NCBI GenBank assembly: GCA_944358985.1
Contig: CALVSI010000006.1
Span: forward strand, 1 to 63,297
Direction: 5' to 3'
Source of the DNA: an uncultured Bacilli bacterium
Lineage (GTDB): Bacteria; Bacillota_I; Bacilli_A; RFN20; CAG-826
DNA length: 63,297 nt
The first letter of the stretch is position 1; every line of letters begins with the position of its first letter. The notes under the pieces are model-generated. The model did not search any database, was not told where the DNA came from, and worked only from the letters and a program-made list of their open reading frames with translations. Shown piece by piece: positions 57,656 through 63,182 of this stretch. The position numbers and the translations under genes are program-made.

Positions 57656-58419
57656 CACACTTTCTCTAACACTAGATTATTTATGTCATCGTAGAATTCA
57701 TCATTTTTAAAATTTGAAACGATATTATTGAAATAACCTAAAATAATTAAGCGTTTAGCTTCCTTAATCGACAAACCACGACTAAGCAAATAAAATAGAT
57801 GTTCTTCATTAAGCTGTCCAATGCTAGCACCATGATTTGCAATAACATCATCATTTTCAATTTTCAATATCGGTTTAGCTATTCCACTGGCACCTTGATC
57901 TAAAATTAAAATTTTTGCGCGTTGCTGTGTTGAACATTTAATCATGTTTTCACTAATTTTTGAACAGCCTAGTAATTGAATATGGCTTTGATCTTTACAA
58001 ATACCATAATTTTCCACATTTGCAGTTGTAGAATTTGCTAAATGATGAACATTAATTTCAATATTTTTATTATCAACATTTGAACCTAAAGTTGCACATT
58101 TATAATTAAAATTAGCACCGCTTTTCAATAAATAAGCATCAATTTTAATATTTGAATCTTTTTTTGAAAAATCTAAAAAATACACGGAAACAGAAGAGTT
58201 TTTGTTTAAATTTAAAGACATTTTAATATTTTGATTAATACCATCAGTTATTATTTTTAACGTCAATGCTTTGTTTTCCAATATTTCAAAATCAACAGTT
58301 AATGAATGTTGAATATTCTTAAAAACAATGATTTTATTTTCATCTAATTCAAGATTATTTTTAAATTCATCGTCATCCGTATAAACTATGTAATTACTAA
58401 TGATTTTATTTATGGACAT
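57655..58419 (-). CDS. sufD: Fe-S assembly protein SufD
   Basis: A 254-residue SufBD-family protein, shorter than the roughly 430 residues of Bacillus SufD. The C-terminal ANHGASIGQLNEEHLFYLLSRGLS segment and IILGYFNNI are typical. It appears to keep the beta-helix core and C-terminal helices and to have lost most of the N-terminal domain. The ATG at 58419 sits inside the end of sufC, preceded by AAGGA. Confidence 0.92.
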   Translation of the reverse strand: MSINKIISNYIVYTDDDEFKNNLELDENKIIVFKNIQHSLTVDFEILENKALTLKIITDGINQNIKMSLNLNKNSSVSVYFLDFSKKDSNIKIDAYLLKSGANFNYKCATLGSNVDNKNIEINVHHLANSTTANVENYGICKDQSHIQLLGCSKISENMIKCSTQQRAKILILDQGASGIAKPILKIENDDVIANHGASIGQLNEEHLFYLLSRGLSIKEAKRLIILGYFNNIVSNFKNDEFYDDINNLVLEKV

Positions 58420-59239
58420 TTTTAGCAAGTTCCTTTGTAGCACATACTCCAATTGAAACAGAATTCATTTTTTTATCATCATGTTTTTCAATATCAATGC
58501 CATGTTCTGTCTTTAAAAACTCGTATCCTTCTTTATCTACTTTATTAATCAACGATGCATCGCCATGTAATACAATTTGCCCATTCACCATAATGCATGC
58601 ATGGGTTGGATTAATCAAATTAAAAAGTCTTGCATAGTGTGATATTACAAGAAAAGCGTGATTATTATCTTGAAGTTGATTTATAGCATTACTGACATCA
58701 TTAATCGCATCAACATCAAGGCCAGAATCTATTTCATCAAGCATACAAAATGTTGGATTTAATAAAATCATTTGTAAAATTTCATTACGTTTTTTTTCAC
58801 CGCCAGAAAAACCTTCGTTTAAATTACGATTAGCAAGGTCGAAAGGCATATTTAAAATTTTGCAAGCGTTGTCGAGCACCTTATAGAAGTTATAAAGAGA
58901 AATCGGCTTATCATTTCTAGCATTAATTGCAGAACGCAAAAATTCAGCATTTACAACGCCAGGAACTTCACTAGGATTTTGCATAGCTAAAAATAAACCT
59001 TTTATACTTCTTTCGTTTGTAGACAAATTGGTGATATCTTCTCCATTTAAATGAATCGATCCTCTTGTAATATGATATTTAGGATGGCCCATAATCGCGT
59101 TAAATAATGTTGATTTGCCATGACCATTAGGGCCAAGAATCGCTAATGTTTCTCCTTGGTTAATGGTTAGATTGATACCTTTGAGTATTTCTTTTCCTTC
59201 CACTTCGACATGAAGATTTTTAATCACTAAACTTTGCAT
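58406..59239 (-). CDS. sufC: SufC ATPase
   Basis: A 277-residue ABC-type ATPase of the SufBCD scaffold. Walker A GPNGHGKST near residue 35, signature GFSGGEKKRNEI near residue 144, Walker B MLDEIDSGLDVDAI and a switch histidine in VISHYARL. It is about 25 residues longer than most at the C-terminus. AGGTG precedes the ATG. First gene of the operon. Confidence 0.97.
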   Translation of the reverse strand: MQSLVIKNLHVEVEGKEILKGINLTINQGETLAILGPNGHGKSTLFNAIMGHPKYHITRGSIHLNGEDITNLSTNERSIKGLFLAMQNPSEVPGVVNAEFLRSAINARNDKPISLYNFYKVLDNACKILNMPFDLANRNLNEGFSGGEKKRNEILQMILLNPTFCMLDEIDSGLDVDAINDVSNAINQLQDNNHAFLVISHYARLFNLINPTHACIMVNGQIVLHGDASLINKVDKEGYEFLKTEHGIDIEKHDDKKMNSVSIGVCATKELAKNVHK

Positions 59240-59449: not shown

Positions 59450-61324
59450 ATGAAACATAAAAAACTATCTATTTCAGTAGTTTCTGCTTTCATTGCTGCT
59501 TTAGGATTAACAAGCTGTTCCAACAATGTTACAGCCTCTGAAAACGCTATTGTTACCTTAAAAGGATATGATGGCCAAGAGATTGCAATTGATACTAACG
59601 CAATTTATGACAAATATAAAGTTAGCGAAAACGGAATTAGCAGTTTTTACCAAGCAATTTTAGAAGTTATTATCCGAAACTTCTATGAAACAAGTACAAA
59701 TTCAGAAGTTCAATCACAATTAGCGGAATTTGAATCTCAGGCTAGAAATGATGTTACAAGCAAACAAGATGAAGCAAGAGAAAACGCTGATGCTAATGGA
59801 ACTAGTTACGATACTGAATGGCAAGCTATTTTAGATGCAGCAAACGTTGATGATGAAGAAGGTCTTTATCAACAATATTTGTATAATTTAGAAAAAGAGG
59901 ATTATGAGGATCGTTATTTTGAAAGCCATAAAGCTGAATTAACAAATGAATATATCGGATTTAAACTTGATGGCGAATCGTATGTAGATTATGATGGCGT
60001 TCATTCTAGCCAATATCCTTATCATGTCCGTCACGTTTTAGTTAACGTAACTGCAAGCGCTACAGACTATGTTACTGGCGAAATTACTTCAGATGAGGCT
60101 AGACATTTAAATACTGTTTACGAAGCTTTAACAAATGGTAGAAACACATTTGGTGAAGTTGCATATCACTGGAGTGATGATTCATCTAGTAGTAAATATG
60201 GTGACGCTGGAATTATGGCTACAAATACCGAGTTCGTTAATGAATTTAAATTAGGTTTATATGCTTTTGATACAGTGTATGGCACTAGTGTTACTGGTGA
60301 CGCACAAGCTAAAACAAACAAACTAGGTACAGATGGTCAATATAACGAAGGTAGTGAAACTATCGCCGATAAATTATCTAATATTGGTCTTGCTACTGTT
60401 TCCTATGAAGTATTTGAATTATTAGGTGACTACTATAACACAGAAAAAAGTGATGAAGGTTTAACGGTCAATAACGGATTAGCAAAATCTTTCCCACGAA
60501 ATGTTTTCTGGAATAGTTATTTGAACTTACACAACGTTTTTGTTGTAACAGATCAAATGATTTCAGATGAAGAACTAGGCTTAGGATCTGGTGATGTAGA
60601 ATATACCCATTATACAGAACCAGGCGAAGCTATTGAAGGCCGTGCTGGCTTTAGACACGTCGCTGGTCTTGACAGTGTGGTCGGAGCAGGTACACGTGTT
60701 TTAACAGACGAATTTGGTCGTGTTATTGTTTGTGTTAGAAGTGAATATGGGATTCATTTTATGACCATGCAAAGAACACCATTTGAATTTGATGGAACTA
60801 TCAATGGTTATAACAATGGTTCGTACACCTATAACAACACTAATATTGCTGAATACTACACCACTTATGTTCCTAATGATCAAGAATATCCAAAGAATAG
60901 TAATGGTAGTAATAAAGTTACTTACGTTAATTTCTTGATTAGTGAAGAATCGACTTATCAAGAACGTGCTCAAGAAGTAGAAGATGCTATTCAAGCCTTT
61001 GATAATATGTACGATTATCGTATTTTTGAAGAATTAATGGAAAGCGGACAAATTACAATCAATGATGAAGTTGTCGCTAATAAAATTAATGAATTCATTG
61101 ATCAAAAACGCGAATACAATGAATGGGAAGATGCTAAAAAATTAAATGACTCATGGAATTCATATCTTGACAAAATTTCTTTACAATATGAAATTCGTGA
61201 TGATGAAAATGGTGTCGAAAATTCTAAACGTTTAGTCAAACCAACTTGCGGTATTCGTTTCAAAGACTATAATCCAGATGACCCAATTTGGAAATACGGA
61301 GGTGAATGCTATTATGAAAACTAA
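59450..61324 (+). CDS. PrsA-like peptidyl-prolyl isomerase lipoprotein
   Basis: A 624-residue lipoprotein with lipobox LTSC (lipidated Cys23). The N-terminal region (about 28-185) is helical and charged, like the chaperone arm of PrsA/SurA. A parvulin-type segment starts at HVRHVLVNV near residue 192 and runs through TFGEVAYHWSDD and YGDAGIM near residue 250. The strand GIHFMTMQRT that would close the domain is only near residue 434, so about 150-170 residues seem to be inserted. It probably folds exported proteins. A good ribosome site precedes it. Confidence 0.82.
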   Translation: MKHKKLSISVVSAFIAALGLTSCSNNVTASENAIVTLKGYDGQEIAIDTNAIYDKYKVSENGISSFYQAILEVIIRNFYETSTNSEVQSQLAEFESQARNDVTSKQDEARENADANGTSYDTEWQAILDAANVDDEEGLYQQYLYNLEKEDYEDRYFESHKAELTNEYIGFKLDGESYVDYDGVHSSQYPYHVRHVLVNVTASATDYVTGEITSDEARHLNTVYEALTNGRNTFGEVAYHWSDDSSSSKYGDAGIMATNTEFVNEFKLGLYAFDTVYGTSVTGDAQAKTNKLGTDGQYNEGSETIADKLSNIGLATVSYEVFELLGDYYNTEKSDEGLTVNNGLAKSFPRNVFWNSYLNLHNVFVVTDQMISDEELGLGSGDVEYTHYTEPGEAIEGRAGFRHVAGLDSVVGAGTRVLTDEFGRVIVCVRSEYGIHFMTMQRTPFEFDGTINGYNNGSYTYNNTNIAEYYTTYVPNDQEYPKNSNGSNKVTYVNFLISEESTYQERAQEVEDAIQAFDNMYDYRIFEELMESGQITINDEVVANKINEFIDQKREYNEWEDAKKLNDSWNSYLDKISLQYEIRDDENGVENSKRLVKPTCGIRFKDYNPDDPIWKYGGECYYEN

Positions 61325-63182
61325 ATTTATTCCTCTACTATTAGCACCAGCTTTATTGCTCGCAAGTTGCAGTAGCGAAATTATTGCTTACCCAGGTGAT
61401 AACGATTCAGCGCTTGTTGTTGGTCAAAATGGTGCCGCTTTAAGCGAAGAAGTTTATAACAATATTAAAAGCATCGTTTATGATGCGATGCGCGATAATG
61501 GAACTGTCTCTAGTGATGTCTTAGATGAAGTTTTATATCAACTCGCTACATCAGTGGTTGGCGAATATGATGAATTAAGTAATGTTTATGAGTTGTTAGA
61601 AGAAACAAGCACTAATGTCTACGCTAATAACCAAACCATTAATGATTTTATTGACAATCACAAAGCATATTGGGTTAAAGATGTCGATGGAAATCGCTTA
61701 ACTGATGCCGATAGCAAAAACAAAGAATACATATTAGTAAAAAATATGTTTGAAAGAATTCAAAATCGTATTGCAGAAGCATTTTATAGTGAAATTACAA
61801 GCGGTTCGTATCTACGCAATGGATATTTCTATGAGACAGATTATTTAATGTCATTGAGAAATTCTATCAATAATGTTGCCAACCCATTAGATCAAGCTAA
61901 TAATGGATTATTACATGATAAATATTTAATTATTCCTGAAATTGGTGAAGATGAAGTATTCGATTATGATTGGAATGGCGAACATACACTTAAAGGTTTA
62001 TTAACATTATCATTATACGAAAACGAAGAAGCAGGATATGATTATGTTTCTACCTCTATTATTCCAGAAATTTATAGAAACTTATTGGTGGAACAATATT
62101 TGTTTGATAACAACTATAATACTTTAGGTCGTGCATACGCACGTGAAGTAAATATTATTACTATCGAAAACAGAACCGATTATCCTTTAGCAGCCGGCAA
62201 CTTAATGAATGCATATGTTGATAATTATATCAATACTGATAATGCAACGGTGGCTCAAAATGCTTCTTTTGATGTTATTTCAGAAGCTTGGCGCGGTGTT
62301 AATTTACCAGCATCTGGAACTGTTGATGGTTCAATTGATGAACAAGCTGCATTCTTATTAACCGAAGCTGGAATTACTCAAACTTCATATGTCGATAATA
62401 ATGGATTTACAGGTGAAACATATAACTACTTCCCTGGCACTAGCTATGGTGATATGGTTGAAGACTTAAAAGAAGTAGTTAAAGATCCTTTACTCACCGA
62501 TTCCACTATTGAAAATGAATTTACCAATAATGGCGAATACACTATCAGCCAAGGTATTGTTAACAAAACTAACGTTATTTTGCAAGAAGATTATGTCACT
62601 GATGGTTGGTACATCCGCAATGGTGGTTTAGAAGATTTAGGAGAAAGTTTCAGTTCTTTAAGAACACGTCTATTCAATATCGGTGTTGCTAATGCGCTAG
62701 ATGATGCTGATTATCCTGATCGTTTTACATTAAACGAAGACAATACCACATATACATACAGTATTCCTGAAAACGAAGGAAACTATGTTGCCAAAATTCA
62801 TGGACGTTATTTCTTAAAACCAGTTACTCGTGAAAATCCTGGTGATGTTGAGGTTGATTACAGTGTTGTCAGCAATCGTTTAAAAGATATTTTGTGGTCT
62901 GACTCAAATGGTAATTATACAATTGTAGAAATTACACAAGCTGTTTCAAGTAGCAAACTTGCCAAATATTCTTCAACAAATTACGAAACAGTTTACGGCG
63001 GTTTAGATGGCTTTGTCATGATGGAAAATATTGCACATGAAGTTGCATCAGTAATCGCTGAAAACGATTCTTATCGTACACTTTCTACTCAATATTGGTT
63101 GAAAGCTGCTGCGTTAAGTTATCACGATGATGTTGTCTACAAATATTTTGCAGATAATTATCCAGAACTTTTTGAAGAATAA
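61314..63182 (+). CDS. Large lipoprotein, foldase-like partner
   Basis: A 622-residue lipoprotein with lipobox LASC (lipidated Cys19). The ATG at 61314 is chosen because GGAGGTG lies upstream and the signal peptide starts there. A longer in-frame start lacks one. It overlaps the upstream foldase gene by 11 nt. The N-terminal layout (short beta strand, helical arms from about residue 40) resembles that gene, but I see no rotamase motifs. It is probably a co-chaperone or diverged paralogue, which is inference. Confidence 0.75.
   Translation: MKTKFIPLLLAPALLLASCSSEIIAYPGDNDSALVVGQNGAALSEEVYNNIKSIVYDAMRDNGTVSSDVLDEVLYQLATSVVGEYDELSNVYELLEETSTNVYANNQTINDFIDNHKAYWVKDVDGNRLTDADSKNKEYILVKNMFERIQNRIAEAFYSEITSGSYLRNGYFYETDYLMSLRNSINNVANPLDQANNGLLHDKYLIIPEIGEDEVFDYDWNGEHTLKGLLTLSLYENEEAGYDYVSTSIIPEIYRNLLVEQYLFDNNYNTLGRAYAREVNIITIENRTDYPLAAGNLMNAYVDNYINTDNATVAQNASFDVISEAWRGVNLPASGTVDGSIDEQAAFLLTEAGITQTSYVDNNGFTGETYNYFPGTSYGDMVEDLKEVVKDPLLTDSTIENEFTNNGEYTISQGIVNKTNVILQEDYVTDGWYIRNGGLEDLGESFSSLRTRLFNIGVANALDDADYPDRFTLNEDNTTYTYSIPENEGNYVAKIHGRYFLKPVTRENPGDVEVDYSVVSNRLKDILWSDSNGNYTIVEITQAVSSSKLAKYSSTNYETVYGGLDGFVMMENIAHEVASVIAENDSYRTLSTQYWLKAAALSYHDDVVYKYFADNYPELFEE

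Follow-up and report, generated by a model that had tools for sequence, protein, structure and literature searches.

Two overlapping genes for large lipoproteins lie near the end of a 63,297-nucleotide contig from an uncultured, gut-type Bacilli bacterium (GCA_944358985.1, CALVSI010000006.1), the whole of which is called the window here. The first open reading frame (ORF1; 59450..61324, + strand) encodes a 624-residue PrsA-type foldase with a split parvulin domain, as judged from the ORF call, Pfam, an alignment and a structural model. The second (ORF2; 61314..63182, + strand) encodes a 622-residue lipoprotein that appears, from the ORF call, alignment and model, to be a PrsA-like paralogue without the active site. 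The mechanical ORF of the second gene spans 61278-63182 on the + strand. The start at 61278 was dropped for the likely start, the ATG at 61314, on account of the lipoprotein signal and the overlap pattern, and with it the two genes overlap by 11 nucleotides. The signal peptide of ORF1 (59450..59518, + strand) extends up to the lipobox cysteine C23, which is invariant in the 76 rows of its alignment; C19 of ORF2 is invariant in 73 rows. A preliminary description of this DNA had considered the two proteins to be coupled and similar in size and N-terminal layout, and the layout proved to be similar. ORF1 is present in a single copy and is the sole match to PF00639 (Rotamase) in the 1.17-Mb draft genome, and NCBIfam supplied a name for neither ORF.

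Both alignments were drawn from the best 80 of 188 matching loci in named genomes. These genomes belong to uncultured Bacilli or Erysipelotrichaceae and one Candidatus Alloenteromonas. The ORF1 alignment omits the truncated or broken ORF1s of L117, L126, L141 and L173 and the near-identical L115. The ORF2 alignment omits L115, L141, L156, L160 and L171, together with three loci that have no ORF2.

The split parvulin domain of ORF1

The Pfam Rotamase family was found to match ORF1 over only the first 69 of its 97 positions (residues 195-267, E 5.7e-5). Among the ORF1 relatives, at E up to 0.1, Rotamase_3 was matched by 64/76 and Rotamase by 63/76. The last parvulin strand, with the motif GIHFM and H436, lies far downstream of the matched part. 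The spacing from GxG to GIH or GYH is 183 residues in ORF1 versus 36-42 in ordinary PrsA (15/17 with both motifs), which places the size of the insert at about 145 residues; a compact parvulin of the usual length was thus not found in ORF1. Across the 76 rows the distance from F266 to H436 varies from 143 to 230 residues, with a median of 173.

An AlphaFold2 model made from the 76-row alignment (predicted local distance difference test score, pLDDT, 85.9; predicted template modelling score, pTM, 0.85) places a strand at 191-199, helices at 214-228, 234-241 and 245-249, a second strand at 252-256 and a helix at 264-277. A separate stretch follows, and then strands at 427-431 and 434-442. Human Par14 could be aligned to this model over 97 of its 101 residues, across the range 185-444, at 2.3 Å (Z 6.5), so that the parvulin core appears whole and broken after helix 4. 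In the model the core is complete and is split between the fourth helix and the third strand, by about 145 residues as judged from the motif spacing. The preliminary description had noted parvulin strands at both ends of ORF1 with 150-170 residues between them; the split and the insertion were recovered, and the size was revised to the shorter figure given by motif spacing. With an insert of this length and a core that is still complete, ORF1 is regarded as a variant of PrsA and not as a standard member.

The remainder of the model resembles PrsA as well, with helical parts on the N- and C-terminal sides of the parvulin domain. The PrsA structures 6vj6, 5tvl and 4wo7 gave Z 8.5-8.6 over 236-245 residues. 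On the + strand, the N-terminal helical chaperone part, of the N- and C-terminal (NC) type seen in PrsA and SurA, comprises about residues 48-184 (59591..60001), PrsA structures aligning from model residue 48. It is followed by the first part of the parvulin domain (residues 185-277, 60002..60280), with strand 1, the helices, strand 2, helix 4 and the residues H195, D244 and S246. The insertion (about residues 278-415, 60281..60694) was placed from the model, the alignment and the motif spacing. The last part of the domain (residues 416-444, 60695..60781) contains strands 3 and 4 and H436, and the C-terminal chaperone part extends over about residues 445-552 (60782..61105), PrsA alignments stopping at model residues 547-553.

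H195 and H436 are invariant (76/76 each), and D244 and S246 are each kept in 74/76. H195, D244 and H436 match H146, D194 and H239, described as active-site residues of S. aureus PrsA (PMC2678132), and S246 is likewise counted with the active site. The prolyl-isomerase core of ORF1 is probably working. A motif within the insert, PRNxxxNxxxNxH (window 60494-60532, residues 349-361), is also near-invariant, with R350, N351, N355 and N359 present in 76/76.

The second protein and the conservation of the pair

ORF2 was recognised by no family profile in Pfam or NCBIfam, and Rotamase is absent among the 25 Pfam families matched by any of the 73 ORF2 members. A Pfam 'UBD' match (E 0.022) was set aside as being under its cut-off and unshared by other members, and nothing credible emerged when PDB sequences were searched with an ORF2 profile. 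The structural model of ORF2 (pLDDT 87.8, pTM 0.86) was more informative. The 11 best chains in Foldseek were all PrsA-type, at weak E-values (0.04-0.34), and VIA-align superimposed B. subtilis PrsA (4wo7_B) over 242 of 256 residues at Z 8.5, covering model residues 29-617. A middling Z from VIA-align can reflect a common arrangement; the case for ORF2 draws on how the matches rank, how much of the protein they cover and the small gene pairs described below. An unrelated fold for ORF2 was rejected on the strength of this model. Residues 274-545 (62133..62948, + strand) were aligned to the parvulin domains of PpiD (Z 6.3) and SurA (Z 5.6), with 92-102 residues at 2.9-3.1 Å. Since this parvulin-like domain is stretched across about 270 residues, it too appears to be interrupted. 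It is degenerate, and the 73 rows contain no conserved histidine on its first or last parvulin strand. The earlier view that ORF2 lacks rotamase motifs thus agrees with Pfam and falls short as to the fold, which is present in the model. ORF2 is modelled as a PrsA paralogue without the active site and not as an active PrsA.

The two genes stay together across an order and beyond. ORF2 directly follows ORF1 in 77 of the 80 named loci, and the other three stop at the contig end. Among wider relatives, where 54 loci were read with profiles, 52 of 56 ORF1-type ORFs are directly followed by an ORF2-type gene; two of the remaining four are at contig ends, and two precede a lipoprotein of 479 or 495 residues that the profile missed. 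The overlap is 8, 11 or 14 nucleotides in 63/77 pairs. Together, overlap and adjacency substantiate the coupling proposed for the two genes. This joint occurrence, with the parvulin core in the ORF1 model, upholds the two-part PrsA-like pair of the preliminary description, which had to be corrected as to the fold of ORF2. In two loci (L108, L109) the pair has been doubled as a pair, in the order 1-2-1-2. A translated search detected ORF1 in 51/58 relatives and ORF2 in 40/58.

The neighbourhood of the pair, marked by iron-sulfur (suf) genes, is conserved as well. In the window, sufC (58406..59239, - strand) is the divergent neighbour that fixes the locus, and it is followed by sufD, sufS, sufU, sufB and mnmG on the strand opposite to ORF1 (names assigned from the sequences). 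sufC is upstream of ORF1 in 74/80 named loci. A HIT gene comes after ORF2 in 65 of the 68 loci that have a further gene, and YhaM is next in 54/66. The contig stops 115 bases past ORF2, and the place of the HIT gene is thus beyond the window.

Origin of the pair and its Mollicute relatives

The ORF1 profile matched 103 of the 395 genomes of the class that were searched. In three families (f17, f20, f25) most of the matching proteins are ordinary PrsA, about 320-350 residues long. Twenty such loci were considered, L234-L236 being omitted from the profile comparison. In 11 of them, from f20 and f25, PrsA is followed on the same strand by a second gene of 283-326 residues; eight of these small pairs are beside sufC (one with an intervening gene) and seven are followed by HIT. 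In another six, PrsA has no partner, and HIT directly precedes it in three. The B. subtilis prsA gene is presumably also located near hit and yhaM. A 402-residue frame at a contig end (L234:143-406 in G088, family f16) matches the ORF1 profile across the insert region (E about 1e-5) and is possibly another long ORF1 relative.

Profile comparisons of the 11 small pairs and six single PrsA proteins, made after removal of the signal peptides, connect the long and small forms. ORF1 matched the small PrsA at 99.7% (E 3e-26), and ORF2 matched the small second gene at 94.1% (E 1.2e-7) and the small PrsA at 0.2%. The small first and second genes matched each other at 99.6% over nearly their full length (E 6e-24). 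The ORF2 profile alone also finds 3 of the 11 small second genes (E 3e-11 to 2e-5). Against 14 unrelated neighbour families, ORF1 reached at most 1.9%, ORF2 0.3% and the small second gene 4.2%; reversed profiles reached at most 1.4%. Homology between ORF1 and ORF2 was not claimed from their direct profile match, which covers residues 1-80 only, and for that reason their paralogy is argued through the small pair and the folds. With matches via the small pair and low controls, the comparisons indicate that ORF2 descends from a duplicated PrsA whose active site was lost, and that the long forms arose later. In four small pairs of family f20 (L227, L228, L232, L239) the first PrsA has lost active-site histidines (e.g., GYH to GYY or GFY), and by sequence both members look non-catalytic.

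A comparable gene order is known from Mollicutes. In Mycoplasma hominis, the operon hitA-hitB-hitL has been described as encoding P80, the lipoprotein P60 and HinT, with P60 tightly bound to P80 on the cell surface and HinT binding P80 (PMC1173108, PMC539234). P80 is there reported to have an uncleaved type I signal and to be released into the medium (PMC539234). The role of the P60/P80-HinT operon was left open in these 2004-2005 papers (PMC539234, PMC1173108). To compare this locus with the window, 78 HIT loci were chosen by hand, not at random, from HIT matches in the order that holds Mollicute-type genomes; families such as f11, f22 and f29 are taken to be Mollicutes from in-gene TGA codons, small genomes and their hit loci. 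Two large genes directly precede HIT in 68/78 loci (50/60 and 18/18). Very often the Mollicute pairs have suf genes on the opposite strand and YhaM after HIT. Among the 10/60 loci not counted, eight have no pair before HIT (three with DUF3713 beside HIT), and two (L287, L299) have both genes with two further ORFs before HIT.

ORF1 matched HitA profiles at 94% (f36, a single sequence), 82% (f22) and 40% (the others pooled). ORF2 matched the pooled HitB profiles from outside f22 at 65.5% (E 6e-5). No profile match was obtained between ORF2 and the P60-type HitB of f22 (0.1%), and the link between these two is consequently one of position alone. Crossed comparisons (ORF1 with HitB, ORF2 with HitA) stayed at or under 0.9% without signal peptides and reached up to 3.7% with them. 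The Mollicute hitA-hitB-hitL locus is most likely orthologous to the locus of the pair in the window; the profiles support the correspondence of HitA with ORF1 and, in part, that of HitB with ORF2. No paper joining PrsA with P80/HinT was found in the open-access literature searched.

DUF3713 genes, which encode 1175-1353 residues, are directly before HIT in L273 and L274 (f29) and after HIT in L275, an arrangement that connects the Mpn444 family with the hit locus. The DUF3713 protein of L245 matches PDB entries 9gn0 and 9qgq by phmmer (E 0), the latter entitled 'Homotrimer of the extracellular PPIase Mpn444'; phmmer with another member, from L251, did not find Mpn444. The entry 9gn0 is the best structural match of the ORF1 model (Z 9.3, 361 residues, chain 24-615), exceeding any PrsA in residues aligned. 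The DUF3713 N-half profile matched HitA at 96.9% and ORF1 at 36.7%. The C-half gave a weak structural match to the ORF2 model (Z 2.8, chain 731-1297) and a profile value that was not significant (0.5%). PF12506 (DUF3713) has no match in ORF1 or ORF2, nor across 149 genomes of the class. A GVH-type histidine is the only active-site-type histidine conserved in DUF3713. Given the low C-half values, the comparisons go as far as suggesting that an Mpn444-type protein may be a fusion of the two genes. No paper on the Mpn444 structure was found within the same literature.

A probable two-subunit foldase and its rivals

ORF1 and ORF2 probably make up a PrsA-derived foldase that is anchored in the membrane and acts after translocation, each contributing one subunit. 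It would go back to a tandem duplication of a prsA gene located next to the suf and hit genes. The first copy would have kept its parvulin active site and gained the insert of about 145 residues inside that domain, the second would have lost the active site and become a pseudo-isomerase, and both would have grown after the duplication. The overlapping genes are probably translationally coupled, and both lipoproteins would be located on the outside of the membrane, probably as a heteromer replacing the PrsA homodimer. B. subtilis PrsA is a bowl-shaped dimer whose NC part provides the essential chaperone function and whose isomerase matters for some clients, according to a review (PMC12445088). 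By analogy, the SurA-like NC parts would hold the emerging chain, ORF1 would isomerise X-Pro bonds, and ORF2 would supply shape and substrate binding. In such a heteromer, only one of the two lipid-anchored arms would be catalytic.

Several observations weigh against this reading. Neither ORF was found in 6 of the 58 relatives by translated search. One of these, G005 (L332; 0.4 Mb, 66% complete), keeps suf and has lost the pair from its place, which makes the system dispensable at least there, with an apparent joint loss of both genes. In G050, sufC is present without the pair on a short contig; the other four lack any good sufC match, and there the contig in question may be missing. Foldseek supported both models weakly, with best E-values of 0.006 for ORF1 and 0.044 for ORF2. 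The first copy in f20 has lost active-site histidines, and catalysis is thus not kept everywhere. Contact between the two proteins, their activity and their clients are matters of inference, binding having indirect support from the conserved coupling and from the P60/P80 complex reported for M. hominis (PMC539234), and ORF2 could act alone. A rival account takes this last point further, with ORF1 as the PrsA of the lineage, alone or as a homodimer, and ORF2 as an independent lipoprotein that shares the operon only. ORF1 does hold everything needed by itself, the two profiles match directly over no more than the first 80 residues including the signal, and in family f17 a lone PrsA is found next to HIT. 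This account is nevertheless unlikely: ORF2 adjoins ORF1 in almost every locus that continues downstream, the pairs are duplicated together and absent together, ORF2 is PrsA-like both by fold and via the small second gene, and work on M. hominis reports that P60 binds P80 tightly (PMC539234).

Could both proteins have given up foldase work and now be surface structures, as antigens, adhesins or components linked to transport, with the old fold preserved and the parvulin residues having a structural role? The high divergence of the Mollicute relatives would fit such a change, as would the release of P80 noted above (PMC539234), the lost histidines of f20 and the single GVH-type histidine of DUF3713. 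A study cited in PMC2678132 also concluded that the histidine pair of Pin1 is not essential for activity. The invariance of H195 and H436 and the near-complete conservation of D244 in the window's lineage and the status of ORF1 as the genome's only PF00639 match speak against it, and it is considered improbable. The PrsA-derived two-subunit foldase is preferred over both. A broader proposal, about as likely as not, would make the P80/P60/HinT surface complex and the Mpn444-type lipoproteins the descendants, in wall-less bacteria, of the PrsA secretion foldase. The window's lineage would then be an intermediate, with prsA duplicated, one copy a pseudo-isomerase, inserts in both parvulins and an obligate heteromer with an active subunit that retains the entire active site, and the two genes would have been fused in the Mycoplasma pneumoniae group.

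The gene pair would be a new variant of PrsA, and what a specialist would find surprising is its link to P80/P60 and Mpn444. If the mycoplasma P60/P80-HinT operon does encode a PrsA-derived foldase, direct tests of its function, partners and essentiality become possible, and the window's lineage, in whose pair the active site is still present, is well suited to them. The pair would also exemplify an extracellular enzyme that is paired with its own dead paralogue, and a parvulin domain able to accommodate a large insertion at a single site.

The proposed two-part, PrsA-like pair can be compared with several known systems. Like the PrsA of B. subtilis, S. aureus and streptococci, ORF1 is a lipoprotein with an NC chaperone part around a parvulin domain and retains the active-site residues, and the PrsA of related families is found in the same suf/hit neighbourhood. 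Unlike PrsA, the system here consists of two overlapping genes, the proteins are about twice the length, the first contains the insert and the partner has a degenerate, interrupted parvulin. PpiD-YfgM and SurA likewise combine a parvulin with SurA-like helices, and the parvulin-like part of ORF2 aligns to both PpiD and SurA, but they have no gene pair of this kind; they are proteobacterial systems with other anchoring and other partners. The Mpn444/MG309 homologue has an N-half that folds like ORF1, was deposited as an extracellular PPIase and adjoins HIT in L273-L275, whereas it is one protein of about 1200-1300 residues, a homotrimer by its deposition title, in place of two genes. HitA and HitB share with the pair the arrangement of two large genes directly before HIT, often with suf divergent and YhaM after; they differ in their very low sequence similarity and in the type I uncleaved signal reported for P80 (PMC539234), as against the lipobox of ORF1.

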